The position numbers were made by a program, and so were the translations under genes. Positions 6,726 through 39,966 of a stretch of DNA of 47,187 nucleotides are shown piece after piece; positions within the stretch are counted from its first letter, which is position 1; the number at the start of each line of letters is the position of its first letter. The notes below the pieces were generated by a model. The model was not told the DNA's origin. It did not search any database and worked only from the letters and a program-made list of their open reading frames with translations. This DNA is from an uncultured Clostridia bacterium (GTDB lineage: Bacteria > Bacillota > Clostridia > TANB77 > CAG-508): positions 1 to 47,187 of the forward strand of contig CALXFF010000011.1 in NCBI GenBank assembly GCA_944387525.1, read 5' to 3'.

Positions 6726-7490
6726 GTGGAAGATGAAGATATGATAAATATTAGAGATATGAAAGACGCAAAAACAATATTAATTGTTGATGATGAACAA
6801 CCAATTGTTGATATATTGGTCCATAATCTGATTAAAGAAGGTTATAAAACTTTAGAAGCAAATGATGGTATAACAGCAGTAAATATGGCATTAGAAAAAA
6901 AGCCTGATTTAATTTTATTAGATATAATGCTTCCTAAAATGGACGGATTATCTGTATGTAAAAGAATAAAGAACTCATATAATGTACCTATATTAATGCT
7001 AACAGCCAAGGATGAAGAAATAGATAAAATTTTAGGTTTAGAGTTAGGAGCAGATGATTATATAACAAAACCTTTTAGTGTAAGAGAACTTATGGCAAGA
7101 ATTAAAGCAAATTTAAGAAAAGCAGATATAATTGCAGACAATCAAGTAATAGAGCAAACTTCAAGTAATGATAAGAAAAAAGATAGTAAGATAAAAGTAG
7201 GAGATTTAGAATTAGATTTAGATAAATTTGAAGTTAAAGTTAGAGGAGAAATAATAGATTTAACATTAAGAGAATTTGAAGTATTGAAATTCTTAGCATC
7301 ACAACCAGAGCAAGTAGTAACAAGAGAAACTTTACTTGAAAAAGTTTGGGGATATGAATATTATGGTGATATTAGAACAGTTGATGTAACAGTAAGAAGA
7401 ATCCGTGAAAAAATAGAAAAAGATACTTCAGCACCAAAGATATTAATAACAAAAAGAGGTGTAGGCTACTATATAGCAGACAGGGATTAG
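6726..7490 (+). CDS. OmpR/PhoB-family response regulator
   Basis: Two-component transcription factor of 254 residues: receiver domain (about 16-130) with acidic pair D22-D23, phospho-acceptor D66 (LLDIMLP), T93 and K115 (TKPF), then a linker and a winged-helix DNA-binding domain (about 155-252) ending RTVDVTVRRIREKIE...RGVGYYIADRD. GTG 6726 is 7 bases after AAAGAAAGGG; ATG 6741 is an alternative. No kinase gene is adjacent; the window's only histidine kinase is 27 kb away and of the PhoR/WalK type that pairs with this family, so pairing is possible but unproven. The last codons AGG GAT and the TAG stop are part of a REP-like repeat. Confidence 0.95.
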   Translation: MEDEDMINIRDMKDAKTILIVDDEQPIVDILVHNLIKEGYKTLEANDGITAVNMALEKKPDLILLDIMLPKMDGLSVCKRIKNSYNVPILMLTAKDEEIDKILGLELGADDYITKPFSVRELMARIKANLRKADIIADNQVIEQTSSNDKKKDSKIKVGDLELDLDKFEVKVRGEIIDLTLREFEVLKFLASQPEQVVTRETLLEKVWGYEYYGDIRTVDVTVRRIREKIEKDTSAPKILITKRGVGYYIADRD

Positions 7491-7511
7491 GGGACGGTCC
7501 TAAAAATCCCT
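7482..7511 (+). repeat. REP-like palindrome, subfamily I, supplying the stop of the response regulator gene
   Basis: AGGGATTAGGGGACGG followed by TCCTAAAAATCCCT. Outer stem AGGGATT/AATCCCT, inner palindrome GGAC-G-GTCC. Its first nine bases encode Arg-Asp-stop of the upstream gene. Confidence 0.8.
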
Positions 7512-7513
7512 AA

Positions 7514-7570
7514 TTAAAAAAGATAGAACTAAATTTGTAACTAGTACAAAATTAGCTCTATCTTTTTTAA
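7514..7570. terminator. bidirectional terminator between the response regulator and PBP genes
   Basis: TTAAAAAAGATAGAACTAA... (7514-7539) pairs with ...TTAGCTCTATCTTTTTTAA (7545-7570) with two mismatches and a five-base loop; A- and T-runs at the ends allow function on both strands. It overlaps the stop codon of the convergent PBP gene. Confidence 0.8.
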
Positions 7571-9888
7571 TGGGCATCTGTCAAAGTACTACGTAAAGTA
7601 ACCTTTATAATCGTACCTTCAGGAACTTGCTCATTTGCCATATAATCTTGAGTAATAACAGTTCCACTACCTTCAATATTAATATTCAAATTTTTATCTC
7701 TCAAAGTAGTTGTAGCTTGTGAAGCGTTCATACCCTTTAAATCTGGAACTGTGACAGAAGTAGAAGTAGTACTTCCTTCACCATAAAGCACAATTAAAGA
7801 ATTTTTAGGTAATTGACTACCAGGTTTTGGATTTTGGTCTCCAACTAAAATAGTATTTGCGTCCCCATTTACATATGTTTTAGTATTAAATCCAGCATCT
7901 TTTAAAATCTTTTCAGCTTCCGCAACGGTTCTATTTCTAACATCAGGAACAGTAATATAATTACTAGAATTACTATTACTATCAGCAGTAGCATCTGAAA
8001 CAACACCCATATATGGTAAAATTTCAGATAGCATTTGAGAAACAACTGGTCCTGCAACTTGACCACCTTGATGACCATTTTCACCTTTAGGATCATATAA
8101 AGTAACTAAAAGAACAATTTTAGTATCCTCAACCGGAGAAATTGCAACATATGAAGCAACATAACCTTCTTCTGCATTTGCTTCTGTTGGTTCGGAAGTA
8201 CCAGTTTTTCCTCCTATAGAATAACCGTTTACAGCAGCATGTCTACCAGTACCTTCTGTAACTACAGACTCCATCATAGATTTTACTTTTGCAGCAGTTT
8301 GACTAGAAATTACTTGCCTTACTTGAGTAACAGGAATTTCAGTAACTGCTCCTGTATCAGTATTTGTAACAGATTTAACAATTCTAGGTTGCATCAATAC
8401 CCCATCATTAGCCACACAAGAAATTGCTGTAATCATTTGAAGAGGTGTAATATTTAACCTTTGTCCAAATGACATAGTAGCAAGTTCTACAGGACCAACA
8501 TTTTCTAGCTTTTGGAATATACTACTTTGCTCACCATAAAGACCAGAGTTAGTTGAATCGAACAATCCAAATGCCTCATAGTATTTATATAAAGTAGAAG
8601 CACCAATTCTTGCTCCAAGTTGCATAAATGCGGGGTTACATGAATTCATCAATGCTTGTCTTAAAGTTTGAGAACCGTGAGGGTTTGCTCTCCAGCATTT
8701 AATTTTAATAGTTGAACCATTTACATCTTCAAATTCTTCATAACCTTTACAATAAAAATCGCCAGCAACATCTGTTGAAGTGATATTTTCTTCTAAAGCA
8801 ACTGCAGAAGTTATAACTTTAAAAGTAGAACCAGGCTCATAAGTTTCAGCAACAGATTTATTTGCCCACATTCTATATAATGCCTCACTTTTTTCTTCTG
8901 TAGATAAACTATCATAAGTTTGAGCCAATGTGCTATTAGGTGTATAAGGTGAGTTTAAATCATAATCAGGATAAGATGCCATAGCTAAAATATCACCTGT
9001 TGAAGGATTCATTGCAATAACATTTCCACCTCTAGAGCATTCATTTTCTTCAACCGCTTGTTTTAAATATTTTTCAACAATAGTTTGAATATTTAAATCA
9101 ATTGTTAAAGTTAAATCACTACCATTTTCAGCTGCAATATATGTTTCCTCAGCATCAGGAATTTCTTGTTGGTCGCTTCCTTGTGAACTAACAATCTTTC
9201 CTGGAGTACCAGTTAATACTGAATCCCATTTAGATTCAATTCCACTTAAACCTTGATTATCACTTCCACAAAAGCCAATTACTGCTGAAGCAACAGTACT
9301 ATATGGATAATATCTTTTTGTATCTTCATCAATATTAATACCAACAGAAATCTTATTTTCTTTCATCCAAGCTGTTAACTCATCAACTTTATCTTGTTCA
9401 ACTTTTTTTGCAATTGTTTCAACTTGTGAATCACTACTTACTTTTTCCAAAGTTTCATTGTAATCAAGCCCAAAAATTTCTGAAAGACCTTTTGCAACAG
9501 TTTCTTGATATGTAGCAGTTTCTTCATCACTATCTTTTTTGAACTTTGAAGGATTAATTGTAATAGTATCTACTTGAGCACTTATAGCTAAAGCTTTTCC
9601 AGTAGAATCGTAAATATTTCCACGTTTTGGACTTATAATTTGATTAATAGCTTGTTGTTTATATGCTTGTTCTTTTAAATAACTTCCTTGAACAAATTGT
9701 AAAAATCCAATTCTACAAATTAAAAGAACAAAAATTATTACTGTAACTAAAAGAATTAATCTTAGCTTTTTTGTATATATAAAATTTTTCGATTCGAAAT
9801 CTGAATTTATTTTTACTACATTTGAAGTTTTTTTAGACCTATTATTATTTAATCTCTTGTTTTTATCTGGACGTCTTTTATCAGTCAT
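7567..9888 (-). CDS. class B penicillin-binding protein with two PASTA domains (FtsI/SpoVD type)
   Basis: Peptidoglycan DD-transpeptidase with one N-terminal membrane anchor (about residues 45-63). Order: anchor, PBP dimerisation domain (SPKRGNIYDSTG), transpeptidase with active-site STFK (Ser near 354 from the chosen start), SCN in MNSCNP and KTGT in IGGKTGTSEP, then two PASTA domains beginning ITVPDVRN and VTVPDLKG. ATG 9888 is chosen because the in-frame GTG at 9897 belongs to the ribosome site AGAGGTGG. It is a paralogue of the PBP at 16791, sharing long stretches such as IGFCGSDNQGL and GINIDEDTKRYYPY, but is longer by one PASTA domain. Which of the two serves vegetative division and which sporulation (SpoVD) cannot be told here. 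Confidence 0.93.
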   Translation of the reverse strand: MTDKRRPDKNKRLNNNRSKKTSNVVKINSDFESKNFIYTKKLRLILLVTVIIFVLLICRIGFLQFVQGSYLKEQAYKQQAINQIISPKRGNIYDSTGKALAISAQVDTITINPSKFKKDSDEETATYQETVAKGLSEIFGLDYNETLEKVSSDSQVETIAKKVEQDKVDELTAWMKENKISVGINIDEDTKRYYPYSTVASAVIGFCGSDNQGLSGIESKWDSVLTGTPGKIVSSQGSDQQEIPDAEETYIAAENGSDLTLTIDLNIQTIVEKYLKQAVEENECSRGGNVIAMNPSTGDILAMASYPDYDLNSPYTPNSTLAQTYDSLSTEEKSEALYRMWANKSVAETYEPGSTFKVITSAVALEENITSTDVAGDFYCKGYEEFEDVNGSTIKIKCWRANPHGSQTLRQALMNSCNPAFMQLGARIGASTLYKYYEAFGLFDSTNSGLYGEQSSIFQKLENVGPVELATMSFGQRLNITPLQMITAISCVANDGVLMQPRIVKSVTNTDTGAVTEIPVTQVRQVISSQTAAKVKSMMESVVTEGTGRHAAVNGYSIGGKTGTSEPTEANAEEGYVASYVAISPVEDTKIVLLVTLYDPKGENGHQGGQVAGPVVSQMLSEILPYMGVVSDATADSNSNSSNYITVPDVRNRTVAEAEKILKDAGFNTKTYVNGDANTILVGDQNPKPGSQLPKNSLIVLYGEGSTTSTSVTVPDLKGMNASQATTTLRDKNLNINIEGSGTVITQDYMANEQVPEGTIIKVTLRSTLTDAH

Positions 9889-10012
9889 AATATCCACCTC
9901 TTTAGTTTTTAAGTAGCTATATTTTATAATAAAATGTAAAAAAAAGCAAGATGTTGCAAATAAAAGAAAATCATGTTATCCTATTATTAAAGTTAAGAAA
10001 GGATAATTAAAA

Positions 10013-10870
10013 ATGAGTAATTTATGGGATGAAACATCTTTTATAATGAAAAAATATCATATAAAAGCAAATAAAAATTTAGGACAAAACTTTTTAATAG
10101 ATGAACAAGTAATAGAAAAAATAGTAAATGCAAGTGAAATAACAAAAGAAGATTGTGTAATTGAAATAGGACCAGGATTAGGAACATTAACAAAAGAGTT
10201 ATTAGAAAAAGCAGGAAAAGTTATCTCGATAGAACTAGATAAAAAAATGATAACTATATTAAAAGATAGATTTGCTTTATATGACAATTTTGAATTAATA
10301 AATAATGACATTCTCCAAGTAGATTTAAAAAATATAATATCAACTGAAAAAGAAAAAGGATTAAAAAATATAAAAGTTGTAGCAAATCTTCCATATTATA
10401 TTACAACACCAATAATAATGAAACTTTTAGAAGAAAAACTAGATTTAGAAAGTATAACAGTTATGGTACAAAAAGAAGTTGCAGATAGACTAATTGCAAT
10501 TCCAAGTGATAAAGAGACAGGAGCAATTACATATAGTGTATATTATTATGCTAAGGGAGAAGAGATAATAGAAGTACCAAAAGAATCATTTATACCAGAA
10601 CCAGAAGTGACATCAAAAGTAATAAAATTAAACATCAGAAAAGAACCACCTGTTAAAGTCAAAAGTCCAGAAGTAATGTTTAGGATAATTAAATGTGCAT
10701 TTATGCAAAGGAGAAAAACTTTATTAAATGCTCTTGTAAATACTAAAGTTTTTTTGAATAAAGATGAAGGAATAAAAATTTTGAAGAAAATAGGACTTAG
10801 AGAAGATGTTAGAGCTGAAAAATTAAAAATAGAAGATTTTGCAAAAATAACAGATAGTATATTAAAATAA
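10013..10870 (+). CDS. rsmA: 16S rRNA dimethyladenosine transferase RsmA (KsgA)
   Basis: Dimethylates two adjacent adenines of the 3'-terminal helix 45 of 16S rRNA during small-subunit maturation. Signatures: NLGQNFLID at the N-terminus, SAM-binding IEIGPGLGTLT, and catalytic NLPYY (VVANLPYYITTP). 285 residues, normal length. GAAAGGATAATTAAAA precedes the ATG. It is divergent from the PBP gene, with 115 bases between. A QRRKTLLNAL stretch near the C-terminus is typical of the family. Confidence 0.97.
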   Translation: MSNLWDETSFIMKKYHIKANKNLGQNFLIDEQVIEKIVNASEITKEDCVIEIGPGLGTLTKELLEKAGKVISIELDKKMITILKDRFALYDNFELINNDILQVDLKNIISTEKEKGLKNIKVVANLPYYITTPIIMKLLEEKLDLESITVMVQKEVADRLIAIPSDKETGAITYSVYYYAKGEEIIEVPKESFIPEPEVTSKVIKLNIRKEPPVKVKSPEVMFRIIKCAFMQRRKTLLNALVNTKVFLNKDEGIKILKKIGLREDVRAEKLKIEDFAKITDSILK

Positions 10871-10991
10871 TATAAATATCTCATTTGCTAATATATAAAG
10901 TATAAAATGGATATGAACTGAGCTCAAAAAATTAATTCAACAAAAAATATTGGATTTTTTAGAAAAATCTATTTAAAAAAGTTTTCTAACA

Positions 10992-11000
10992 TGATATAAT
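10992..11000 (+). promoter_or_regulatory. extended -10 promoter upstream of the sortase gene
   Basis: TGATATAAT (TG-n-TATAAT) about 90 bases before the sortase ATG, in a 219-base gap that otherwise holds only AT-rich sequence. No good -35 box is visible (TTTAAA at the expected position). Confidence 0.45.
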
Positions 11001-11089
11001 ATTATAGAATATGCAAATTTAAATATGAAACATAATATTAGAAGCATAAACAAAATGTATCAAAATACTAAAGGAAGGAAAAATCAAGA

Positions 11090-11830
11090 ATGAATCAAAT
11101 TTTGGTAACAAAAAAATTATATATAACACCAGAATTAAAAAGAAAAAAGAAAATCTACAAATTTGATTTCTTTTTATCTGTTTTTTTAGTATGCATTTTA
11201 ATTTCCTTTTATATTTATGCCGAATATGCTAGAAACAAAGATGAAGAAGTATCACAGGAAATTTTAGCAAATATGAATATAACACAAGATGACACAGTTG
11301 CAGACAGTAATGTTTTAATTGCAGTATTAGATGATGAAGAACAAACAGAAGAACTAAATTCAGAAGTTAAGCAACAGGTGGAAAATGCAAGCAAAACAGT
11401 ACAAACAACAGATAGTGGATTTAGATATGCAACAATTGCAACAATAAATATACCAAAAATAAATGTAGAATATCCAATATTAGATGGAGAAACTGATTCA
11501 GTAGAAGAAACAGAAGCACTACTAAAGATTTCTCCTACAAAGTTCTGGGGACCAGAACCAAATGAAGTAGGAAACTTCTGTATAGTAGGGCATAATTATA
11601 GAAATACAAGATTTTTTAGTAAAGTACCAACATTAGAAAATGGAGATATTATAGAAATAACAGACTTAACAGGAAGAAAGATTAGTTATAGAGTATATAA
11701 TAAATACACTGTAGACCCAACAGATGTTAGTTGTACAAGCCAATTAACAAATGGAAATAAAGAAATTACATTAATTACTTGTACAAATGATAGTAAGATG
11801 AGAGTTATAGTTAAGGCAAGGGAAGTTTAA
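11090..11830 (+). CDS. sortase, probably class D-like
   Basis: Membrane cysteine transpeptidase that joins surface proteins to the wall or to each other. Single N-terminal helix (about 27-44), a polar linker, then the sortase barrel from about residue 110. Catalytic residues are visible: His in VGHNYR, Cys in LITCTN and Arg in SKMRVIVKA near the C-terminus. The short barrel lacks the class B insertion, so it differs from the sortase at 18812. No substrate with a clear sorting signal is adjacent. It is separated from rdgB by 7 bases and probably co-transcribed with it. Confidence 0.9.
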   Translation: MNQILVTKKLYITPELKRKKKIYKFDFFLSVFLVCILISFYIYAEYARNKDEEVSQEILANMNITQDDTVADSNVLIAVLDDEEQTEELNSEVKQQVENASKTVQTTDSGFRYATIATINIPKINVEYPILDGETDSVEETEALLKISPTKFWGPEPNEVGNFCIVGHNYRNTRFFSKVPTLENGDIIEITDLTGRKISYRVYNKYTVDPTDVSCTSQLTNGNKEITLITCTNDSKMRVIVKAREV

Positions 11831-11837
11831 GGTTGAA

Positions 11838-12428
11838 ATGAGAATGAAAAAAGATATTGTAATGGCGTCAGGAAATAGTGGAAAGATAAAAGAAGCACAA
11901 GAAATTTTAAAAGAATATAAAATAATCCCTATGAAAGAATTAGGAATTAATATAGATGTCGAAGAAGATAAAGAAACTTTTGTAGAAAATGCTATAAAAA
12001 AAGCAGAAGAGATAGCGAAAGAAACAAATGGTAAAATGTGCTTAGCAGATGATTCTGGAATTGAAATTGAATATTTAAATGGATTTCCAGGAGTACATAC
12101 TAAAAGATGGTTCAATGGAACAGATAGAGAAAGAAATCTAGCGATTTTAGATAAATTGCAAGGAGTTCCTAAAGAAAAAAGAAATATAAAATTTATTACA
12201 GCAATGGCACTTTCAGATGGTAATAAAACAATTTCGGTAGAAGCAAGTATAGATGGATATGTAACCGAAACTCCTAGAGGAGAAAATGGTTTTGGTTTTG
12301 ATGAAATTTTTGAATTAGAAGATGGAAGAACTTTGGCAGAATTATTAAATGAAGAGAAAAATGAGATAAGTGCTAGAAGAAAAGCTTTAGAAAAATTAGC
12401 AGAAAAAGTAATAATGTTAGAATTTTAA
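11838..12428 (+). CDS. rdgB: XTP/dITP diphosphatase RdgB (HAM1 family)
   Basis: Hydrolyses non-canonical purine triphosphates (XTP, ITP, dITP) to monophosphates and keeps them out of nucleic acids. Family signatures: ASGNSGKIKEAQEI at the N-terminus, LADDSGIEI, FPGVHTKRW and GENGFGFDEIF. 196 residues is normal. Overlapping starts ATG AGA ATG AAA; the first is used. A terminator hairpin follows. Confidence 0.95.
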   Translation: MRMKKDIVMASGNSGKIKEAQEILKEYKIIPMKELGINIDVEEDKETFVENAIKKAEEIAKETNGKMCLADDSGIEIEYLNGFPGVHTKRWFNGTDRERNLAILDKLQGVPKEKRNIKFITAMALSDGNKTISVEASIDGYVTETPRGENGFGFDEIFELEDGRTLAELLNEEKNEISARRKALEKLAEKVIMLEF

Positions 12429-12445
12429 TAAAATATGATAATTTT

Positions 12446-12484
12446 AAGTATTAGCGAGTGTAAATGCTAATGCTTATTTTTATA
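12446..12484 (+). terminator. intrinsic terminator after rdgB
   Basis: AAGTATTAGC (12446-12455) pairs with GCTAATGCTT (12466-12475), one mismatch, followed by ATTTTTAT. Confidence 0.65.
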
Positions 12485-12516
12485 GAAAAAATTGCTAATA
12501 ATTGGATATAAACTGA

Positions 12517-12545
12517 TTGACAAAAGAACAAAAGTTTGATAATAT
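12517..12545 (+). promoter_or_regulatory. predicted promoter of the RhuM-family gene
   Basis: TTGACA (12517-12522), 17-base spacer, TAATAT (12540-12545), 30 bases before the start codon. Confidence 0.65.
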
Positions 12546-12574
12546 ATGGCAAATAAATAGAGGTGAATTTAAAA

Positions 12575-13594
12575 ATGAGTAACAAAGATTTATATATAAG
12601 AAGTAGTAGTGCAGAATTTCTAATATTTGAACAACAGAAAAAAGAACATGGAATCGAAGTGCGTTTTGAAGATGGAGATTTGTGGCTAACTCAAAAGGCA
12701 TTGGGAGAATTGTATAATACATCAAAACAAGATATAAGTTATCACATAAAAAATATTTATAATGATTTAGAATTAAATCAAAAATCAACTGTCAAAGAAT
12801 TTTTGACAGTTCAAAATGAGGGGAATAGAGAGGTAAAAAGAAAAACTATATACTACAATCTAGATGCAGTAATTTCTGTTGGATATAGAGTAAATACAGA
12901 TAGAGCAATTCAATTTAGAAGATGGGCAACAAATGTATTAAAAGAGTTTTCAAAAAAAGGATATATTATAGATAAAAAAAGAATGGAAAATGGAACATTT
13001 TTTGATGAAGATTATTTCGAATCATTACTTGCAGAAATTAGAGAAATAAGATTATCAGAAAGAAGATTTTACCAAAAAATAACAGATATATATGCGACAT
13101 CCATTGATTATGACAGCAAATCTCCTACAACAATCAAATTTTTCAAAAAAGTCCAAAATAAGATGCACTATGCAGTAACCCATCAAACAGCAGCAGAGAT
13201 AATTTATAATAGAGCAGACCATAAAAAAGAACATATGAATTTAACTAATTGGAAAAATTCTCCGAATGGTAAAATATTAGAAACAGATGTGATTATTGCT
13301 AAAAATTGCTTAAAAAAGGAAGAATTAGAACAATTAGAACTTATTGTTTCAGCTTTCTTAGACTTGGCAGAGGCAAGAGCGAAAAGAAATATTCCCATGA
13401 CTATGGAAGATTGGGCAAAAAGAATAGACAAATATTTATTATCAGATGATAGAGATGTATTAAAAGATGCTGGTAAGATATCACACGAGATAGCGAAAGA
13501 AAAAGCATTAACAGAATTTGAAAAATACAGGGTTATACAAGATAAATTGTATAAATCTGATTTTGATAAATTAATAGAAAGTAGTAAAAATTAG
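12575..13594 (+). CDS. RhuM-family protein
   Basis: The N-terminal half resembles the RhuM virulence-protein family: EVRFEDGDLWLTQKALGELYNTS, a predicted winged-helix-like start, then YYNLDAVISVGYRVN and FRRWATNVLKEF. RhuM proteins occur on islands and next to restriction or phage genes; their biochemical role is not established. ATG 12575 is chosen, 9 bases after GAGGTG; an in-frame GTG at 12563 lies inside that site. The C-terminal half contains AVTHQTAAEIIYNRADHKKEHMNL, also typical of the family. It has its own promoter, is flanked by terminators, and looks like a single-gene cargo unit between rdgB and the wall hydrolase. Confidence 0.8.
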   Translation: MSNKDLYIRSSSAEFLIFEQQKKEHGIEVRFEDGDLWLTQKALGELYNTSKQDISYHIKNIYNDLELNQKSTVKEFLTVQNEGNREVKRKTIYYNLDAVISVGYRVNTDRAIQFRRWATNVLKEFSKKGYIIDKKRMENGTFFDEDYFESLLAEIREIRLSERRFYQKITDIYATSIDYDSKSPTTIKFFKKVQNKMHYAVTHQTAAEIIYNRADHKKEHMNLTNWKNSPNGKILETDVIIAKNCLKKEELEQLELIVSAFLDLAEARAKRNIPMTMEDWAKRIDKYLLSDDRDVLKDAGKISHEIAKEKALTEFEKYRVIQDKLYKSDFDKLIESSKN

Positions 13595-13666
13595 CAAGGT
13601 AAAGTAACAAAAAAATAATCCTTTCATACAATATAAAAAGATTTAAATATGGGAGGATTATTTTTT

Positions 13667-14349: not shown

Positions 14350-14355
14350 AAAAGA

Positions 14356-14385
14356 TGAGGTGTCTAATTTGACACCTCAAAAATT
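14356..14385 (+). terminator. intrinsic terminator after the peptidase pseudogene
   Basis: Perfect stem TGAGGTGTC (14356-14364) / GACACCTCA (14371-14379), six-base loop, then AAAATTTTCT. It insulates the dcw block from upstream transcription. Confidence 0.75.
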
Positions 14386-14418
14386 TTCTATAAAATTTAA
14401 CAAATTTTCAAAAAACAC

Positions 14419-14447
14419 TTGCAAAACAAAAAAAGTTATATTAAAAT
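14419..14447 (+). promoter_or_regulatory. promoter of the mraZ (dcw) operon
   Basis: TTGCAA (14419-14424), 17-base spacer, TAAAAT (14442-14447). Predicted transcription starts just before the GTGG repeats. Confidence 0.65.
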
Positions 14448-14456
14448 GATGGTGAA

Positions 14457-14490
14457 GTGGAGAAAAGTGGTACAAAGTGGTAGGAAGTGA
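14457..14490 (+). promoter_or_regulatory. MraZ operator: four 10-bp-spaced GTGG/GTGA boxes
   Basis: GTGG at 14457, 14467 and 14477 and GTGA at 14487, exactly 10 bases apart, between promoter and start codon. MraZ is known to bind direct repeats of this kind upstream of its own gene and to repress the operon, so autoregulation is expected. Confidence 0.75.
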
Positions 14491-14507
14491 AAAAGGAGGT
14501 CCATTCA

Positions 14508-14933: not shown

Positions 14934-14956
14934 CTTGCAAAAGTTTATATATAAAA

Positions 14957-15180: not shown

Positions 15181-15181
15181 G

Positions 15182-32087: not shown

Positions 32088-33345
32088 ATGGCAAAGAAGA
32101 AAAGAAAAGAAAGAAATTTTTCTAGCTTTTTAAATAACCCGATAGATTTTACATTGTTAATTACTATATTGTTATTACTATGTATAGGATTGATAATGGT
32201 ATTATCTGCAAGTTCACCATCAGCATTAGCTGAAAGTGGTAATAGTTATTCATATTTTTCAAAACAATTGATATTTGCAGTATTAGGAATAATTGCAATG
32301 CTAATGATATCAAAAATAGATTATAGATTTTATCAGAAATTCTATAAGCATGCTTGGTGGATTGCATTAATTTTACTAGCATTAGTTTTAGCAGTAGGTA
32401 AAGAAGTTAATGGTGCAAAAAGATGGATATATGTAACAGAAACTCTATCAATACAACCATCTGAAATAGTAAAAATCTTAATGATTATTTTCTATGCAGG
32501 AATATTAGTGAAAAATAGGGATGAGTTATCAAAATATAGTAAAGGATTTTTAAAACATATTTGCTTATTAGCACCTATTATAGGATTATTATTGCTAGAG
32601 CCACATTTTAGTGCGTCAATTGTAATAATTGGAATATGTAGTGTTATGATGATAATGGCTGGATGTAGATTTTGGCACTTCTTAGTAACAGGAGTAGTTG
32701 CGGGAATTCCAGCATTAGCTTTTTTGATTATAAAAGAACCATATCGTTTGCAGAGGGTTATAACATTTTTAGACCCTTGGCAAGATGCAACAGGAGATGG
32801 ATGGCAGGTAATACAAAGTTTATATGCAATTGGTTCAGGAGGGCTATTTGGTGCAGGATTAGGAGAGAGTAAGCAAAAATTTTTATACATACCAGAGCCA
32901 CATAATGATTTTATATTCTCAATATTAGGAGAAGAATTAGGATTTATAGGTTGTGCAGTTGTATTAATACTATTTGCAATATTCATTTGGAGAGGTGTAT
33001 TAATAGCAATGCGTGCACCAGATATGTTTGGAAGTTTAGTTGCAATAGGAATAACAGCTTTAGTTGCAATTCAAGTAATAATAAATGTAGCAGTTGTGAC
33101 ATCTTCTATGCCAGCAACAGGTATGCCACTACCATTCTTTAGCTACCGGTGGAACAGCATTATTTATATTACTGTGTGAAATGGGAATTTTACTGAATAT
33201 TTCGAGAGCGGGAGTAAAAGGACGGAACATAGAGAGGGGGATTAGGGGGACGGTCCTAAAAATCCCTAAAATTAGGGATTTAGGGACGGACCTTTACCTA
33301 AAATCTATAAGCTTAAGAAGTCCGTCCCCTGTTCCCTGTTTTTAG
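32088..33345 (+). CDS. FtsW/SpoVE-type SEDS glycosyltransferase, with an apparent frameshift
   Basis: Polytopic membrane peptidoglycan polymerase of the SEDS family that works with a class B PBP. Conserved stretches: NGAKRWIYV, IQPSEIVKI, LEPHFSASIVI, PYRLQRVITFLDPW, IPEPHNDFIFSILGEELGF, and SSMPATGMPLPFFSY. At about 33147 one extra C (AGCTACCGGTGG instead of AGCTACGGTGG) breaks the conserved SYGGT; as read the protein stops at 33179 (363 residues). Removing one base restores GGTALFILLCEMGILLNISRAG and runs to TAG 33343, giving about 418 residues. The last 40 or so residues of that frame are encoded by REP-like repeats. Since the rest is intact, a sequencing error or a very recent mutation is likely. 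FtsW versus SpoVE is undecided. Confidence 0.88.
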
Positions 33346-33371
33346 GGATTTTTACCCCGTCCCAAAATCCC
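33235..33371. repeat. REP-like repeat cluster (subfamily I) between ftsW and murG
   Basis: Unit A: AGGGGGATTAGGGGGACGG then TCCTAAAAATCCCT (33235-33267), with two extra G in the first run. Unit B: AGGGATTTAGGGACGGAC (33274-33291) facing GTCCGTCCCCTGTTCCCT (33320-33337). Unit C, inverted: AGGGATTTTTACCCCGTC...ATCCC (33344-33371). Five bases of the murG ribosome site context (GGAAGGAGG) follow directly. Confidence 0.8.
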
Positions 33372-33385
33372 GGAAGGAGGAAAAA

Positions 33386-34504
33386 ATGAGAGCAATTATT
33401 GCAGCAGCAGGAACGGCAGGACATATTAATCCAGGAATTGCAATAGCAAATGAGATAAAAAGACAAGAAAAAGATTCAAAAATAATTTTTATAGGAACAA
33501 CCAGAGGACTAGAAAATGACTTAGTTCCAAGAGCAGGTTATGAATTAAGAACAATTGAAGCATATGGATTAAGCAAAAAACTATCAATAGATAATCTAAA
33601 AAAGATGTATAAAACATTAAAAGGATTTGGAGAAGCAAAAAGAATAATAAAAGAATTTAAACCTGATGTAGTTATAGGAACAGGTGGATATATCTGTGGA
33701 GCAACGATTTCAGAAGCACACAAATTAGGAATACCAACAGTATTACATGAGAGCAATGCATTTCCAGGAAAAGCAATTAAAATTTTAGCTAAAAAAACTA
33801 ATACTATATTAGTTTCTTTTAAAGATGCAATTCCTAGAATAAAAAATGCAAAAAATATAGTTTTTACAGGAACACCTGTAAAAATCAAAAAAATTAATTA
33901 TACAGATGAAATGAAGAAAAATAAAATTAAAGAATTAGGACTAAAAGATGATAAGCCAATAGTATTAATTTTTGGTGGAAGTCAAGGTGCACAAAAAATT
34001 AATGAGTCAATTATTGAAATAATAGAAAAAAATATGAATAAAGATTATCAAGTCATATGGGCAACAGGTCCTAAGCAATATGATATTATAAAAGAAGAAT
34101 TAGACAATAAGAATAAAAACATAAATAGAATTGAAAATATGAAAATAGTTCCATACATATATAACATGGAAGAAATAATGAATTTGGTAGATTTAATAGT
34201 TGCAAGAAGTGGAGCAATGACAGTTACAGAGATATCTAATTTAGGAAAGCCGTCAATTTTAGTACCATTACCAAATGTTAGTCATGATCATCAATTATAT
34301 AATGCAAAAGCATTAGAAAGTATAGGAGCATCAAAAATTTTACTAAATAATGAACTAACAGGAAAACTATTAAATGAACAAATTGAAAAAATAGTATTAG
34401 ATAAAAAAGAAATGATAAATATGGGAGAAAAAGCCTTAAGTATGGCAACTTCAAATGTTGAACAAAAAATTTATGATGAAATAAAAAAAGTTTGTAAAAA
34501 ATAA
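33386..34504 (+). CDS. murG: lipid II synthase MurG
   Basis: Peripheral membrane glycosyltransferase that adds GlcNAc to lipid I to form lipid II. GT-B fold: N-terminal GTAGHINPGIAIANEI loop (the usual GGTGGH is here AAGTAGH), YICGATISEAHKLGIPTVLHESN, and the C-terminal donor-binding IFGGSQGAQKINE and VARSGAMTVTEI. 372 residues. GGAAGGAGG is 5 bases before the ATG, right at the end of a REP cluster. The sensor-kinase gene follows after 25 bases. Confidence 0.95.
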   Translation: MRAIIAAAGTAGHINPGIAIANEIKRQEKDSKIIFIGTTRGLENDLVPRAGYELRTIEAYGLSKKLSIDNLKKMYKTLKGFGEAKRIIKEFKPDVVIGTGGYICGATISEAHKLGIPTVLHESNAFPGKAIKILAKKTNTILVSFKDAIPRIKNAKNIVFTGTPVKIKKINYTDEMKKNKIKELGLKDDKPIVLIFGGSQGAQKINESIIEIIEKNMNKDYQVIWATGPKQYDIIKEELDNKNKNINRIENMKIVPYIYNMEEIMNLVDLIVARSGAMTVTEISNLGKPSILVPLPNVSHDHQLYNAKALESIGASKILLNNELTGKLLNEQIEKIVLDKKEMINMGEKALSMATSNVEQKIYDEIKKVCKK

Positions 34505-34529
34505 AACTTTAAAAAAGGAAGTAAAAAAT

Positions 34530-36044
34530 ATGTTTAAAAACATACAATTTAAAATAATATTAGTTTTTTTCATAATAGGAATAATAATAATAAGTGGATT
34601 AGGAATTTCTTTTATAAATTCACTTCAAATGTTAAGTGTAAAAGTAGAAGAGGGACAGGTTACTGCAGAGCAAGTGGAACAAATATTAAATGTAATACAA
34701 CATAGAACATTTATCACATTAACAACTGCAGGAGTTGTTTTTGCAATAATTGGAATAATTTCAGCAATATTTTTATCAAGATTTGTTATTTATCCAATTA
34801 ACAAATTAATAAAAAGTGCAGAAAAAATTACAGAAGAAAATCCAGATAAAAAGGATAAAGAAACACTTGATGAAATAGATACTGCAGGTAAAGAAAATAT
34901 AGATAAAGATAAAAAATCAAGAAAAAAACCTTTCAAAAAGAAAAAAAGTAATGATTTAGGAGATCTAGAAAATGTATTTGGAGTCATGACAACAGAATTA
35001 AAAGAAAAACTAAGTGAAGTTTCAACTCAAAAAAATCAGATAGAAACAATATTGCTTCACATGACAGATGGAATCATAGCTTTTAACATGAAAGGTGAAA
35101 TAATCTTGATAAATCCAGCAGCAAAGAAATTTTTGAGTATTAGACCAGAAGATAATACATTTGATGATATATTTAAAAAATTCAATTTAGATATAAATAT
35201 GGAAAAAATAATTTACTTAGAAAATTGGACTTCAACAGAGCAAAGAATACAAGTAGAAGATAATTATATGAATGTATTTTTTGCACCATTTAAAAATGAA
35301 TCTGATAGACCAGATGGTGTAATAGCAGTAATTCAAGATATAACAGAACATGTAAAATTGGATAATATGCAAAAAGAATTTGTTGCAGATGTATCACATG
35401 AATTAAAAACTCCAATTACATCAATCATGGGATATGCTGATACTTTACTAGAAGGAGATTATGATAAGGAAACTCAAACTAAATTTTTAAATGTAATTGC
35501 AACAGAAGCAAGGAGAATGGCAAGATTAGTTACAGATTTATTAACACTTTCAAGATATGATAGTAATAAAAAGAAAACACATAAGGAATCATTTGACTTA
35601 GGTGAATTAGTAAAAAAATGTCAAGATAAATTAGCAATAGAAATTAAGAAGAAAAATCATAAAGTAAATTGTTTTGTTACAGCAGATGTGCCACCAGTAT
35701 ATGCTGATAAAGATGATATTGAAAGAGTGGTATTAAATATATTAACAAATAGTATAAAATACACAAAAGATGGTGGAGAAATCAAAATATATGTAGGATT
35801 TGTATATAATGATGCATATATAAAAATTTTTGACAATGGAATTGGAATTCCAGAAGAAGATTTGTCAAGAATATTTGAAAGATTCTACAGAGTGGACAAG
35901 GCTCGTACAAGAGAAATGGGAGGTACTGGTTTAGGTCTTTCAATTGCAAAAGAGATTTTGGATAAAAATGGTGGAAGTATAGATATAAAAAGTGTTGTTG
36001 GACAAGGTACAGAAGTTGTTGTGAGAATACCAACAAAACAATAA
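34530..36044 (+). CDS. membrane sensor histidine kinase (PhoR/WalK type)
   Basis: 504 residues: two membrane helices (about 8-30 and 66-88) enclosing a short outer loop of only about 35 residues, a HAMP-like segment (YPINKLIKSAEKI), a charged Lys/Asp-rich insert (105-142), a PAS domain (about 165-275), HisKA with phosphorylatable His290 in DVSHELKTP, and HATPase_c with N-box NILTNSIKYT, G1 DNGIGIP and G2 GGTGLGLS. Autophosphorylates and passes phosphate to an OmpR-type regulator; the only one here is at 6726. Its small outer domain and position among lipid II genes suggest it senses envelope state through the membrane, as an inference. Its stop is one base before a REP cluster. Confidence 0.93.
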   Translation: MFKNIQFKIILVFFIIGIIIISGLGISFINSLQMLSVKVEEGQVTAEQVEQILNVIQHRTFITLTTAGVVFAIIGIISAIFLSRFVIYPINKLIKSAEKITEENPDKKDKETLDEIDTAGKENIDKDKKSRKKPFKKKKSNDLGDLENVFGVMTTELKEKLSEVSTQKNQIETILLHMTDGIIAFNMKGEIILINPAAKKFLSIRPEDNTFDDIFKKFNLDINMEKIIYLENWTSTEQRIQVEDNYMNVFFAPFKNESDRPDGVIAVIQDITEHVKLDNMQKEFVADVSHELKTPITSIMGYADTLLEGDYDKETQTKFLNVIATEARRMARLVTDLLTLSRYDSNKKKTHKESFDLGELVKKCQDKLAIEIKKKNHKVNCFVTADVPPVYADKDDIERVVLNILTNSIKYTKDGGEIKIYVGFVYNDAYIKIFDNGIGIPEEDLSRIFERFYRVDKARTREMGGTGLGLSIAKEILDKNGGSIDIKSVVGQGTEVVVRIPTKQ

Positions 36045-36045
36045 A

Positions 36046-36148
36046 CAGGGATTAAGGGGACGGTCCTAAAAATCCCTGATTTTAGGGATTTAGGGACGGA
36101 CCTTGATCCCCTTTTTTAGGGATTTTTAGGACCGTCCCCTAATCCCTG
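36046..36148. repeat. REPIN-like 103-bp cluster (subfamily I) after the kinase gene
   Basis: CAGGGATTAAGGGGACGG + TCCTAAAAATCCCT at the left, a middle unit AGGGATTTAGGGACGGACC, and at the right the reverse complement of the left unit with a single-base difference (AGGGATTTTTAGGACCG + TCCCCTAATCCCTG). The whole block is a near-perfect inverted repeat, the classic REPIN arrangement. It could also terminate the kinase transcript. Confidence 0.85.
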
Positions 36149-36168
36149 CAAAAAAATTCGAAAATTCA

Positions 36169-36197
36169 TTGATAACTTAGCAAAAATAATGTATAAT
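36169..36197 (+). promoter_or_regulatory. predicted promoter of lepB-holB-ricT
   Basis: TTGATA (36169-36174), 17-base spacer, TATAAT (36192-36197), 39 bases before the lepB start. It lies directly after the REPIN block. Confidence 0.75.
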
Positions 36198-36235
36198 AGA
36201 GAAGTGAAAATCTAAAAAAGGAACGTGATAAAAGC

Positions 36236-36880
36236 ATGAGTGAAAAAACAAAAGAAATATTAGAGTGGGTATATTGTATAATTATAGCATTAGTATTGGC
36301 AATGCTATTTAGATATTTTATAGGAACACCAACAATTGTAAAGCAAGAATCAATGTATCCAACATTAATACAAGATGAAAGATTGTGGTTAAATAGATGG
36401 GGAAGAACAACAAAGACTTTACCCAAAAGAGGAGATATAATAACATTTGAAGAACCTGCAAAAATAAAATATACAGCATCTGAAATAGACGAAAGTAATC
36501 CAGTAGCACAATATAATGATAGAACAGGATTTGATTGGTTTATACATAACTTTTTGGAGATTGGAAAAAGAAGTTATATCAAAAGAGTAATAGCATTACC
36601 TGGTGAACATGTAGAAATTAAGGATGGAAGTGTATACATAGATGGAGAAAAATTAGATGAACCATACTTACAAGATGGAATTGTAACAGATTTGTACGTA
36701 AATACAAATGGTGTAGGATTTGATGATTTCGTTGTTCCAGAAAATTGTGTATTTGCAATGGGAGATAATAGAAATCATAGTACAGATTGTAGAGCTTTTG
36801 GATGTATACCACTGGAGAAAATTGAAAGTACAGTAGCGATTAGAATTTGGCCATTGAATAAATGGGGACACGTGGATTAA
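36236..36880 (+). CDS. lepB: signal peptidase I (bacterial type)
   Basis: Membrane serine protease that removes signal peptides from exported proteins. One N-terminal helix (about 12-32), catalytic Ser in KQESMYPTL, catalytic Lys in IKRVIALPGEHVEIKDG, and the conserved MGDNRNHSTDCRAFG. The Ser-Lys dyad makes it the ordinary S26A type, in contrast to the Ser-His SipW-type enzyme at 19761. 214 residues. AAAAAGGAACGTG precedes ATG 36236. Followed after 13 bases by holB. Confidence 0.95.
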   Translation: MSEKTKEILEWVYCIIIALVLAMLFRYFIGTPTIVKQESMYPTLIQDERLWLNRWGRTTKTLPKRGDIITFEEPAKIKYTASEIDESNPVAQYNDRTGFDWFIHNFLEIGKRSYIKRVIALPGEHVEIKDGSVYIDGEKLDEPYLQDGIVTDLYVNTNGVGFDDFVVPENCVFAMGDNRNHSTDCRAFGCIPLEKIESTVAIRIWPLNKWGHVD

Positions 36881-36893
36881 AGGATTTGATTAA

Positions 36894-37793
36894 ATGTTTG
36901 AAACAATTTTAGGAAATGAAAAAAATAAACAAATATTGCAAAAATCAATACAAAACAATACAATATCACACAGCTATATGTTTGTAGGAATACAAGGAAT
37001 AGGTAAAAAAATAATTGCAAAAGAATTCGCAAAAAATATATTATGTTTGAATCAGGAAAACGAAAATAGCAATACGAATTGTACATGTAAATCATGTATT
37101 GAGTTTGAAACAAATAATAATCCAGACTTCTCAATAATAGAACCAGATGGGAATAGCATCAAAATAGAGCAAATACGTGAATTACAAAAAAGAATACAAG
37201 AAAAACCTATAATATCAAATAGCAAAGTATATATAATAGATAATGCAGACATGATGACTCAAGAAGCACAAAATTGTTTATTAAAAACATTAGAAGAACC
37301 ACCAGAATATGCAACAATAATATTAATAGGCTCAAATGAAAACCTATTTTTAACAACAATAAAATCACGTTGTATGATTTTACACTTTGAACCAATATCA
37401 AATGAAAATATAAAAAAATATTTGCAAAATGAATTGGGAATTTCAAATATAGATGATGAAATGTTAGATATATTTAAAGGCAGTATAGGAAAAGCAATAG
37501 CGTTAAAAGACAAGAAAGAAGAATATGAAAAAATAATAGCATTTGTAGAAAATTTGGATAAGAAAGATATAATAGACTTATACAAATTAGCAGAACCAAT
37601 ATATAAATCAAAAGAAGAAATATTTGAGATATTAGATTATATAAATATTTTACTATTAAAAAAAGCAAGACAAAATTATTTATACACTGATTGTGTACAA
37701 ATTGTGGAAGATACTAAAAAAAGATTGAAACAAAATGGAAATTATGATATGTGTATAGATAATCTAGTATTTAATCTTAAAGAAAGGGTGTAA
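36894..37793 (+). CDS. holB: DNA polymerase III delta' subunit
   Basis: Clamp-loader AAA+ subunit. P-loop-like GIQGIGKK, zinc-module cysteines (CLNQEN...CTCKSC), and the family stretch IDNADMMTQEAQNCLLKTLEEPPEYATIIL followed by TIKSRCM, a sensor 1/SRC region. 299 residues. It lies between lepB and ricT, spaced by 13 and 6 bases; the holB-ricT (yaaT) pair is a common Firmicute arrangement. Confidence 0.9.
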   Translation: MFETILGNEKNKQILQKSIQNNTISHSYMFVGIQGIGKKIIAKEFAKNILCLNQENENSNTNCTCKSCIEFETNNNPDFSIIEPDGNSIKIEQIRELQKRIQEKPIISNSKVYIIDNADMMTQEAQNCLLKTLEEPPEYATIILIGSNENLFLTTIKSRCMILHFEPISNENIKKYLQNELGISNIDDEMLDIFKGSIGKAIALKDKKEEYEKIIAFVENLDKKDIIDLYKLAEPIYKSKEEIFEILDYINILLLKKARQNYLYTDCVQIVEDTKKRLKQNGNYDMCIDNLVFNLKERV

Positions 37794-37799
37794 AACAAT

Positions 37800-38669
37800 T
37801 TGAAAAATATAATAGGAGTAAGATTTAAAAAACTAGGAAAAATATATTTCTTCAATCCAAAAAACTTAAAAGTAAGAAGAGGAGACAAAGTAATAGTAGA
37901 AACAGCTCAAGGTGATGAGTATGGAGAAGTTGTTATACCAAACAGATATATTGAAGATGAAAAAATATTAGCACCTTTAAAAAAGGTTATACGTATAGCA
38001 AATTATAAAGACCATAAACAATACCAAGAATGTAGAAAAAAAGAGAAAGAAGCATTTCAAACATGTCTAAAAAAGATAAAAGAACACAAATTAGACATGA
38101 CATTAACAGATGTAGAATATAAATTTGATAATAGTAAAATACTATTTTACTTTACAGCAGATGGAAGAATAGACTTTAGAGACTTGGTAAAAGACTTAGC
38201 AGCAATATACAAAACAAGAATAGAACTAAGACAAATAGGAGTAAGAGACGAAGTAAAAAGAATAGGTGGAAATGGAGTTTGCGGTAGAGAACTATGTTGT
38301 TGCACATTCTTAAGCGATTTTGAAACAGTATCAATAAAAATGGCAAAAGAACAAAATCTATCATTAAATCCATCAAAAATATCAGGAAATTGCGGAAGAC
38401 TAATGTGTTGCTTAAAGTATGAAAATGACGTATATGAAGAAAAAGCAAAAAGATTACCAAAAGTCGGAGCAATAGTAAAAACAGAAGATGGAGTCGGAGA
38501 AGTAGACTCTGTAGAAACACTAAAAGAACAACTAAGAGTAAAATTCAAAGATGGAGAAGTAAACACATATAAAAAATATGATGCAAAAGATGTATTAGTA
38601 ATAAAAGATGTAGAAGAAGAAACAGACGAAACAGATGAAATAGTTGATCCAGAACTAGAGAGGGATTAG
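37800..38669 (+). CDS. ricT: PSP1-domain protein RicT (YaaT)
   Basis: 289 residues with a central PSP1 domain. Cysteine-rich motifs GNGVCGRELCCCTFLSDF and GNCGRLMCCLKYEND are typical of RicT, which in Bacillus forms an Fe-S complex with RicA and RicF that controls RNase Y and hence mRNA processing, competence and sporulation; function here is by homology. TTG 37800 is the start, 9 bases after GAAAGGGTG. The C-terminus is very acidic (EEETDETDEIVDPELERD). The last two codons and TAG stop (AGG GAT TAG) belong to a REP-like repeat. Confidence 0.92.
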   Translation: MKNIIGVRFKKLGKIYFFNPKNLKVRRGDKVIVETAQGDEYGEVVIPNRYIEDEKILAPLKKVIRIANYKDHKQYQECRKKEKEAFQTCLKKIKEHKLDMTLTDVEYKFDNSKILFYFTADGRIDFRDLVKDLAAIYKTRIELRQIGVRDEVKRIGGNGVCGRELCCCTFLSDFETVSIKMAKEQNLSLNPSKISGNCGRLMCCLKYENDVYEEKAKRLPKVGAIVKTEDGVGEVDSVETLKEQLRVKFKDGEVNTYKKYDAKDVLVIKDVEEETDETDEIVDPELERD

Positions 38670-38725
38670 GGGACGTTCTTTTAATCCCAGTTACAGGGAC
38701 TAAGGGACACTCTTAGTCTTTTTTT
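38661..38725. repeat. REP-like repeats (subfamily II) at the 3' ends of ricT and the RAYT gene
   Basis: Unit 1: AGGGATTAGGGGACG + TTCTTTTAATCCC (38661-38688), giving the ricT stop. Unit 2: AGGGACTAAGGGACACTC + TTAGTC (38695-38718), a hairpin GACTAAG/CTTAGTC followed by seven T, usable as a terminator. The RAYT stop codon (38713-38715, opposite strand) lies in unit 2. Confidence 0.8.
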
Positions 38726-39489
38726 AGTATATTGTGTATTCTATTTTTTCCTATTTTTAAGTGTTCGGATATTTCTTTATTATTAAAATTTGTATTCATT
38801 TTTATTTCATTTACTAATTTTAACAAGAAACAGTTATTATGTCTTATTAAATCAATTGTTAGATGATTATTTGTACAAAATTCTGTAATAATTTTGTCTA
38901 AGTCAATTGAAGCGGTTTTTGGTTCGACAATGTCTATAATATCATCTATTTTTACGATTTCCAAATTTTTGTGAATAGCATTAAATTCATTTATATAATT
39001 GGTATCAGCAAATATAAGTTTTATAACTTCCGAGTTAACTTTGAAATTTTTATACATATTATAAGAAGAAAATTGATATTCTTCCATAGTTTGTACAATA
39101 TTGGCTTTTACTGGATTATTATGAATATAAACTAGACAATTAAAAAGGTGTTGTTGACTTTCGATGATTTGAATGTGATATCTATTCCTAAATACATAAC
39201 CTACTCTATTTTCGTATTTGTTATACCATAATGCATAAGAAGTATTAGTTTGGCTCATTAATTTTGATAAGTGATTAATATCTTTACAATGAATTAATAA
39301 ATGTATATGATTATCCATAATGCAATATGCCAATATGAATATATCGTCGAAACCTGTTACGTTTTCGAATAATAATTTTTTATAATATTTTTTGTTTTTA
39401 TCAGTATTAAATATATTTCTCTTTTCAATTCCTTGAATCATTACGTGAAGATATGAGGAATTTATTTCTTTTCTTGCAATACGAGGCAT
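38713..39489 (-). CDS. REP-associated tyrosine transposase (RAYT, Y1/IS200-like)
   Basis: 258 residues of the TnpA-REP family. HUH motif HIHLLIH, preceded by AYCIMDN, and the catalytic Tyr in LVYIHNNPVKA; the N-terminus RIARKEINSSYLHVMIQGIEKRNIF and RNRYHIQIIES are family signatures. The C-terminal tail has a possible helix-turn-helix (NKEISEHLKIGKNRIHNILKK). RAYTs are single-copy, domesticated relatives of IS200 transposases that bind and cut REP hairpins. GGAGGAAAT lies directly before the ATG. REP-like repeats of one subfamily sit at both ends of the gene (38661-38725 and 39611-39664), and again at 39910. No IS ends of its own are visible. Confidence 0.9.
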   Translation of the reverse strand: MPRIARKEINSSYLHVMIQGIEKRNIFNTDKNKKYYKKLLFENVTGFDDIFILAYCIMDNHIHLLIHCKDINHLSKLMSQTNTSYALWYNKYENRVGYVFRNRYHIQIIESQQHLFNCLVYIHNNPVKANIVQTMEEYQFSSYNMYKNFKVNSEVIKLIFADTNYINEFNAIHKNLEIVKIDDIIDIVEPKTASIDLDKIITEFCTNNHLTIDLIRHNNCFLLKLVNEIKMNTNFNNKEISEHLKIGKNRIHNILKKD

Positions 39490-39610
39490 ATTTCCTCCTT
39501 TCGTTATTTAATTTGTATATAATAATAATTTGATATTAAATTTTGAATACAATATTTAATAAACTTATAAATAAAAAATAAAGAAAATAAAATAAAACTA
39601 AAAATTATAT

Positions 39611-39664
39611 GAAGGGGAGTCCATAAATCCCTTTAACAGGGATTAAAAGAGCATCCCCTAATCC
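39611..39664. repeat. REP-like repeat pair (subfamily II) between RAYT and ferredoxin genes
   Basis: GAAGGGGAGTCCATAAATCCCT (split here as GAAGGGGAG + TCCATAAATCCCT, 39611-39632) and inverted AGGGATTAAAAGAGC + ATCCCCTAATCC (39638-39664). It lies five bases from the ferredoxin stop codon and about 120 bases upstream of the RAYT start. Confidence 0.75.
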
Positions 39665-39668
39665 TTCC

Positions 39669-39839
39669 TTATTCTTCTTCTGGTGCCTCAACTGGACAAA
39701 CACCAGCGCATGTACCACATGATATACAAGCTGATTGATCTATTACAAATTTATCATCACCTTGTGAAATACATCCTACTGGACATTCAGCTGCACAAGC
39801 TCCACAAGATATACATTTATCTGTTATTTTATATGCCAT
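39669..39839 (-). CDS. 2[4Fe-4S] ferredoxin
   Basis: 56-residue clostridial-type ferredoxin with two CxxCxxCxxxCP clusters (CISCGACAAECP and CISCGTCAGVCP). ATG 39839 (MAYKITD) follows GGAGGTGATAA; an upstream in-frame ATG at 39875 has no ribosome site. It lies downstream of porB on the same strand and is the probable electron acceptor of the pyruvate:ferredoxin oxidoreductase. The 117-base gap to porB contains a REP pair. Confidence 0.95.
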   Translation of the reverse strand: MAYKITDKCISCGACAAECPVGCISQGDDKFVIDQSACISCGTCAGVCPVEAPEEE

Positions 39840-39909
39840 ATTTATCACCTCCATAATTTGTTTCATAAATTCCATAAATAATATCTATGTTGTAATCTTA
39901 CATTTTTTT

Positions 39910-39966
39910 AAAAGAGTGTCCCTTAATCCCTTTAGCAGGGATTAAAAGAACGTCCCCTAATCCCTG
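39910..39966. repeat. REP-like repeat pair (subfamily II) at the 3' end of porB
   Basis: AAAAGAGTGTCCCTTAATCCCT in two halves (AAAAGAGTG + TCCCTTAATCCCT, 39910-39931) and AGGGATTAAAAGAACG + TCCCCTAATCCCTG (39937-39966). On the minus strand the second unit begins AGGGATTAG and encodes the Arg-Asp-stop end of porB. Confidence 0.8.

Follow-up and report, generated by a model that had tools for sequence, protein, structure and literature searches.

Short palindromic repeats at gene ends in an uncultured Clostridia bacterium probably act as portable stop codons

Introduction

Why should three unrelated genes in one stretch of clostridial DNA end in the first bases of the same repeat? The stretch, referred to here as the window, comprises 47,187 nucleotides (nt) from an uncultured Clostridia bacterium (positions 1 to 47,187 of contig CALXFF010000011.1, assembly GCA_944387525.1). 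A preliminary description had noticed that a response regulator gene, ricT and porB all end in AGG GAT TAG (Arg-Asp-stop) and that these nine bases open a repeat similar to repetitive extragenic palindromic (REP) sequences in each case. It proposed that the repeat is targeted to, or selected at, exact gene ends, where it would serve as a portable stop codon with a hairpin. Here we place the repeat in its 1.80 Mb assembly and in related genomes. Comparison of these sequences leads us to consider it likely that the fixed end of the repeat, its head, serves as a portable stop: genes would be captured by it once an insertion or deletion has affected their ends, selection would retain the frame-matched junctions, and head-side deletion would act as a ratchet.

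Results

Three window genes end in the head of the repeat

The three shared endings can be read directly in the sequence, as the preliminary description had it (in protein ends given below, a hyphen marks the junction with the head). The response regulator gene (6726..7490, plus strand; Response_reg and Trans_reg_C domains) finishes ...GCA GAC AGG GAT TAG, giving IAD-RD, and its stop at 7488-7490 lies in a plus-strand repeat unit (7482..7511) whose head begins AGGGATTAG. The gene of a RicT-like PSP1 protein (37800..38669, plus strand) finishes ...CTA GAG AGG GAT TAG, giving ELE-RD; its stop at 38667-38669 belongs to the head, starting at 38661, of a plus-strand repeat pair (38661..38715) of the GGGACGTTC / GGGACACTC subfamily. 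On the minus strand, porB (39957..40910; TPP_enzyme_C) finishes ...ACA AAC AGG GAT TAG, giving ITN-RD, with its stop at 39959-39957 supplied by the head, at 39965, of a further repeat pair (39912..39965, minus strand). Domains were assigned by a Pfam scan of five window proteins, and all other gene names used here are our assumption, made by recognition only.

Two further genes abut the repeat. The pair at 38661..38715 flanks a REP-associated tyrosine transposase (RAYT) gene encoding an IS200-like Y1 transposase of 258 residues (38713..39489, minus strand; PF01797, 2e-10), the stop of which (38715-38713) consists of the final three tail bases of the pair, confirming that it too lies inside a repeat. 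The gene for a sensor histidine kinase (34530..36044, plus strand; HisKA and HATPase_c) keeps its native TAA (36042-36044) just ahead of a plus-strand A>B>A< repeat array (36047..36147); the spacing of exactly one base claimed earlier holds only if the C preceding the AGGG head at 36047 is counted as part of the repeat, and is otherwise 2 nt.

The element has a fixed head and belongs with REP-like repeats

The core of the repeat, GGGACGGTCCT, has 73 exact matches in the assembly, compared to none for the reversed control. In a typical element, an A unit, AGGGATTAGGGGACGGTCCTAAAAATCCCT, is followed after a short spacer by a B half unit, AGGGATTTAGGGACGGACCTT. Each element has two ends: a head (the AGGGATTAG end or variants of it), which is fixed at the 5' side as roughly WA[C/G]-AGGGATTAGGGGACGG, and a tail, which lies at a variable distance from the next gene. 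The A-unit elements fall into two subfamilies, a dominant one with GGACGGTCC and another with GGACGTTC, which is the one found at the window RAYT. The repeat is mainly intergenic, with only 1 of 71 GGACGGTCC heads scored within a gene.

These elements are thus short, palindromic, mainly intergenic and present in tens to hundreds of copies, as is the case for REPs and RAYT-associated repeats in the broad sense, and copies of the GGACGTTC subfamily flank a Y1 transposase. They fall outside the GTAG and CGTC superfamilies, since the head is AGGGATTAG or a variant and TTAG, not GTAG, stands at the foot of the hairpin. We regard them as REP/RAYT-type elements, probably spread by IS200-like Y1 transposases. 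One of the searches behind the repeat set contributed 100 of its 140 places, so that diverged copies are under-sampled; the analysis of positions covers the 70 clusters that contain an A unit, from both subfamilies, with B-only copies excluded.

Heads, and not tails, sit at the edges of genes

Among 75 head ends examined, 56 face a stop codon and 19 face the start of a gene on the opposite strand. Nearly all of the stop-facing heads (54/56) lie between -5 and +23 nt from the end of the stop codon, and 53 of them between -5 and +11, whereas only 5 of 29 tails facing a stop fall within the same window (Fisher p 4e-14). One explanation would be chance in a compact genome, where scarce non-coding room puts any insertion near a stop; indeed, once the element is removed, the residual gap is shorter than 60 nt in 24 of the 56 cases. 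However, where this gap is at least 60 nt (61-321 nt), 30 of 32 heads still overlap the stop or lie no more than 5 nt downstream of it, compared to 1.6 expected for a uniform distribution, and tails do not obey the same rule. We therefore regard chance as very improbable, and the random spread of distances that would have spoken against the original idea is not what the genome contains. An exception occurs in the window itself, where the head of an A>B>B< array (33237..33337, plus strand) lies 57 nt past the stop, making it one of only two stop-facing heads away from a stop.

The start-facing heads are also constrained: in 13 of 19, the distance to the start codon of the opposite-strand gene is 13-23 nt, which is about where the ribosome-binding site ends. 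The fixed end of the element thus tends to be placed right at the boundary of a translated unit. The minus-strand head at 36147 in the window is also start-facing and lies 88 nt from the start codon.

The spelling of the head matches the reading frame that enters it

For 52 heads, a sense open reading frame (ORF) of at least 79 codons ends between -6 and +12; two of these (C24:6019 and C44:1770) end identically, so that a single gene was possibly counted twice. In 31 of the 52, the stop lies inside the element and is TAG every time: 18 are Arg-Asp-TAG (frame 0), five are Gly-Ile-TAG or Gly-Asn-TAG at +10 (frame 2), one is Phe-TAG at +11 and seven are split as T-AG at +2. In the other 21, a native stop (TAA in 11, TAG in 10) is kept just ahead of the head; TGA occurs as the native stop before a head at one site, in a relative.

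The frame in which a gene enters the head goes together with how the head is spelled. All 18 ORFs (at least 79 codons) that enter in frame 0 meet the AGGGATTAG spelling, and all five that enter in frame 2 meet a head of the ATTTAG or AACTAG type (Fisher p 3e-5 on the hand-entered table 18/0/0/5). Frame 1 contains the seven T-AG cases, one ORF ending at +11, one at +23 and a doubtful 80-codon ORF at +38. As a result, nearly all genes that read into a head end with zero to two extra residues, through AGG GAT TAG (Arg-Asp), xGG ATT TAG (Gly-Ile) or T-AG.

Arg-Asp-TAG ends are concentrated at the repeat: they terminate 18 of the 52 genes next to a head and 3 of the 38 genes in the window, compared to none of 101 background genes taken from six 20-kb stretches picked regardless of repeats, which use TAA 73, TAG 19 and TGA 9 times. 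A genome-wide search for AGGGATTAG[A/C/T] found 12 sites, all inside reading frames and none at a gene end (reversed control 4; AGGGATTAGG outside repeats was not searched). The sole background gene with an Arg-Asp end (L080:8966-9418, minus strand) finishes AGG GAT TGA; close downstream lies an apparent repeat of another RAYT (L227), and this end is possibly an old head remnant.

Most orthologues end at a similar place with stops of their own

For the orthologue comparison, 60 of 82 listed regions were used, in four genomes of the same genus (G001, G005, G009 and G017), covering 18 of 24 query genes; two other genomes of far relatives (G012 and G013) were left out, as was one region that is likely mis-assigned. 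Most of the 60 orthologues terminate close to the residue at which the query does, and they carry stops of their own (TAA 47, TAG 11, TGA 2). For the response regulator, the orthologues all end in TAA after IASK (G005) or IATK (G009 and G017), i.e. YYIASK or YYIATK in place of YYIAD-RD. Those of PorB end ITNR (G017) or ITNRKTEE (G009), so that EEITNR corresponds to EEITN-RD here. The exceptions are the RicT tails, which cannot be aligned, and an unrelated tail in the RlmN-like protein of G009; the ends differ by several residues for the RlmN-like protein of G005, the RbgA-like proteins of G001 and G009, the ClpC-like proteins of G001 and G017 and PorB of G009.

Close relatives show filled, empty and remnant sites

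The nearest records are all from uncultured Clostridia, with about 97% (L142), 95% (L144) and 91% (L143) DNA identity over 5-6 kb. The genomes of L142, L143 and L144 are labelled G055-G057 and the present genome G000. A scripted comparison of 58 orthologue cells in these three relatives scored 30 as containing the element, six a remnant, two another repeat and 20 as empty; in all 20 empty cells, an in-frame stop ends -1 to +12 nt from the junction. By eye, three of these 20 are in fact diverged elements or remnants (the UvrA-like gene in G056, the C24:8953 gene in G057 and the HtrA-like gene in G055). As regards mobility of the element, the data consist only of such differences in presence or absence among the close relatives.

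At three sites, a native stop present in a relative is missing where the head terminates the gene. The RicT protein of L143 has a longer end, ELEELEKED followed by TAA, with the head 1 nt further on; this ELEELEKED-TAA stretch is absent from the window, L142 and L144, where the head provides Arg-Asp-TAG. The HtrA-like gene of G055 has a native TGA, a C and then the head, whereas in G000 these 5 nt are missing and the gene ends at the TAG of the head. The UvrD-like gene of G056 has a native TAG, a 26-nt spacer and then the head, which is fused to the coding sequence in G000 and G055. The longer tails in the more distant relatives lead us to suppose that native stops were lost, rather than gained, at these sites.

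The head can also outlast the rest of the repeat. In the UvrD-like gene of G057, the element is gone except for AGGGATTAGGG, which contains the stop; head remnants remain at the PFL-like gene in G055 (a truncated element) and G057 (AGGGATTA), and AGGGAT is left over at the C2:36344 gene in G055 and G057. Together with the fact that the TAG of the head stands where orthologues have a stop of their own, these remnants bear out the portable stop codon of the original proposal. Different repeats can occupy the same stop: at the HisC-like gene, it is taken up by a copy of the GGACGGTCC subfamily in G000 and by one of the GGACGTTC subfamily in G057, with no element in G055 or G056, and the response regulator gene of G056 (L169) ends in a different palindromic repeat, TAGTGCATTGGGGACGG..., the first three letters of which are the stop. 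At two loci (L221 and L223), the remnant GGAGGGAT left after element loss may also serve as the ribosome-binding site of the next gene. Two candidate observations were set aside: an ancestral empty site at the RbgA-like gene of G057, which G056 suggests to be a deletion derivative instead, and the survival of a native stop just past the tail (GGACCT followed by TAA), which was seen by eye and is likely due to chance in AT-rich DNA.

Other repeat families and the question of targeting

Four PF01797 genes were found in the genome, whose assembly is 94.9% complete (L227, L228, L229, which is that of the window, and L230). The four RAYTs differ, and each is flanked by its own GGGGAC-type terminal repeat. 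In the window, a diverged copy of the RAYT-flanking pair (39619..39666, minus strand) follows a small ORF of 56 residues (39669..39839, minus strand), presumably ferredoxin-like from its cysteine motifs, which keeps its native TAA with the diverged head at 39666, 2 nt beyond. Three other sets of repeats were scored, leaving out exact duplicates and copies close to the end of a locus: F2 (30 of 38 places sampled), F4 (15 of 15) and the G032 repeat (30 of 125 copies). F2, whose motif GGGGACAG fits GGGGWSAS, is the only family among those looked at to do so. For F4 (TTAGGGACGTGCCAAAT; L291-L305), 6 of 15 heads fall between -6 and +12, four of them at T-AG stops, and for the G032 repeat 10 of 13 sense-facing heads lie 9-25 nt past a stop.

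It is conceivable that the elements are actively targeted to gene ends, with the transposase or the folded element recognising some feature of stop codons or of the boundary of the translated region. The very narrow distribution of heads where the gap is wide, the F4 heads at stops, the use of one stop by different repeats in relatives (HisC-like and response regulator genes) and the PfkA-like gene, where a head lies 1 nt past the TAA in G000 and the element is absent in the three relatives, all speak for such a process. Nevertheless, the mean string shared by the two flanks of 40 elements (4.97) is close to that of shuffled flanks (4.74), with 24 of 300 shuffles as high, and target duplication, suggested by strings at single sites, was dropped for lack of a significant signal over the 40 elements. 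The flanks have no insertion-site motif beyond being A-rich, heads also abut the ribosome-binding regions of opposite-strand genes, the UvrD-like head of G056 lies 26 nt past the native stop, and heads of F2 and of the G032 repeat are seldom, or not at all, found between -6 and +12. We therefore consider targeting unlikely, and this part of the preliminary description finds no backing in the flanks.

A stable predicted fold, and a possible role in the mRNA

The A+B element has a stable predicted RNA fold (-22.4 kcal/mol, z -2.85), which upholds the hairpin as such; the first seven nucleotides of the head (AGGGATT) are, however, unpaired beside the long stem, with the TAG straddling its foot. 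Folded alone, the A unit pairs AGGGATT, but this fold is weak compared to shuffled sequences (z -1.13). An intrinsic terminator as a general role of the element was rejected, as only 2 of 53 elements have the look of one (counted without a shuffled control).

Heads might also be kept at stops by their usefulness in the mRNA, where the structure could for instance impede 3' exonucleases or delay ribosomes at termination, as has been reported for Escherichia coli REPs located no more than 15 nt from a stop codon (PMC12306157). The stable fold would fit such a role, and 12 of 53 head-at-stop elements are followed within 200 nt by a terminator-like hairpin (again counted without a shuffled control), which suggests that these are located inside transcripts. 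Protection of the mRNA would, however, not require a precision of 5 nt or frame matching; moreover, orthologues without the element exist, and in some relatives only the head has survived deletion. This explanation seems to us somewhat less probable even than targeting.

Discussion

Our analysis suggests how genes come to end in the head of a repeat. Elements would land in the short non-coding space beside a stop codon, and an insertion within the last codons of a gene, or a deletion that reaches them, would be survivable, as the TAG of the head would end translation at once. Selection would for this reason retain the frame-matched junctions, and the gene would afterwards depend on the head for its stop. 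Small head-side deletions could act as a ratchet that moves heads up to functional boundaries, namely stop codons or, in the case of opposite-strand genes, ribosome-binding regions. We lean towards this combination of selection and head-side deletion over targeting as the source of the precision for three reasons: the flanks contain neither a clear motif nor a duplication, heads are also found at ribosome-binding regions, and a native stop that a relative has next to the head is missing at three sites.

Several observations weigh against this explanation. An ORF that enters a head ends there by construction, and positive distances alone therefore prove little; since ORF-based distances are circular for stop-carrying heads, it is the orthologue comparison that carries this part of the argument. 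There are only three native-stop cases, for which the direction of change rests on the outgroup reading, and the downstream flanks of the PfkA-like gene cannot be aligned with those of its relatives, so that it does not represent a clean insertion. There is one clear misfit, C5:52399, where the gene reads on to +23 (outside the -6 to +12 set) and gains about seven residues. The 13 start-facing heads that abut ribosome-binding regions show that the rule is wider than stop codons. The GGACGGTCC subfamily occurs on both sides of none of the four PF01797 genes found. Lastly, only 3 of 32 F2 heads fall between -6 and +12, and none of 27 heads of the G032 repeat, which has the same core, does so; neither repeat shows the exact overlap.

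It is also possible, although we put this forward tentatively, that a head-specific process (direct targeting or the head-side ratchet) brings RAYT-type elements to gene ends and progressively replaces host stops, leaving genes addicted to the head and rewriting C-termini and stop usage in the genus (from TAA to TAG, with added Arg-Asp). The portable stop itself suggests a route by which a selfish repeat might enter a gene, first as a neighbour, then as its only stop codon and finally as a fossil that outlasts the element. Whether REPs are found near stops by insertion, by usefulness or by loss elsewhere can be tested in this genus through the filled, empty and remnant states of its sites.

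A link between REPs and stop codons has been described in other bacteria. The GTAG termini of REPs are reported often to provide TAG to flanking ORFs, and REPs to lie close to ORF 3' ends (Di Nocera et al. 2013, PMC3733652). Those GTAG-tagged REPs resemble the clostridial repeat in being short palindromes found beside Y1 transposases and lying mostly next to ORF 3' ends, and AGGGATT plus TAG at the foot of the stem occupies a place comparable to their GTAG tag; the clostridial head is, however, AGGGATTAGGGGAC, not GTAG, in a clostridial host, and the available part of that study describes neither head variants matched to the frame nor the loss of native stops or remnants that stay behind. The TIRtrons/TIRYT of the same study likewise comprise Y1 transposases flanked by repeats that share a GGGGAC-like motif, but the dominant clostridial family, GGGGACGG, departs from the GGGGWSAS consensus given there at position 7. 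In E. coli, where REPs can also directly follow a stop codon and where PMC12306157 cites work on their effects on translation, 446 of 4,072 predicted REPs (about 11%) lie within 15 nt of a stop, compared to 54 of 56 stop-facing heads here, with 31 of 52 supplying the stop. REPs have been noted very near or immediately downstream of the stops of rayt genes (PMC2817692), and some small repeats to contain stop codons in all frames (PMC2229807). As in the RAYT/TnpA-REP REPtrons and REPINs (PMC2817692, PMC8266576, PMC3116915, as far as available), a transposase is flanked by its own repeats and a short motif stands 5' of the hairpin, where GTAG sits; the clostridial repeat differs from these in lacking GTAG and in its architecture of an A unit and a B half-unit. 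The term 'stop codon' is absent from the main text of PMC8266576 and PMC3116915, and a search of the mainly open-licence literature returned no paper about the clostridial family or about stop remnants that outlast an element. What is new compared to prior work is another head, which is found in Clostridia, strictly follows one orientation and has variants matched to the reading frame, together with evidence from relatives that stops are captured.

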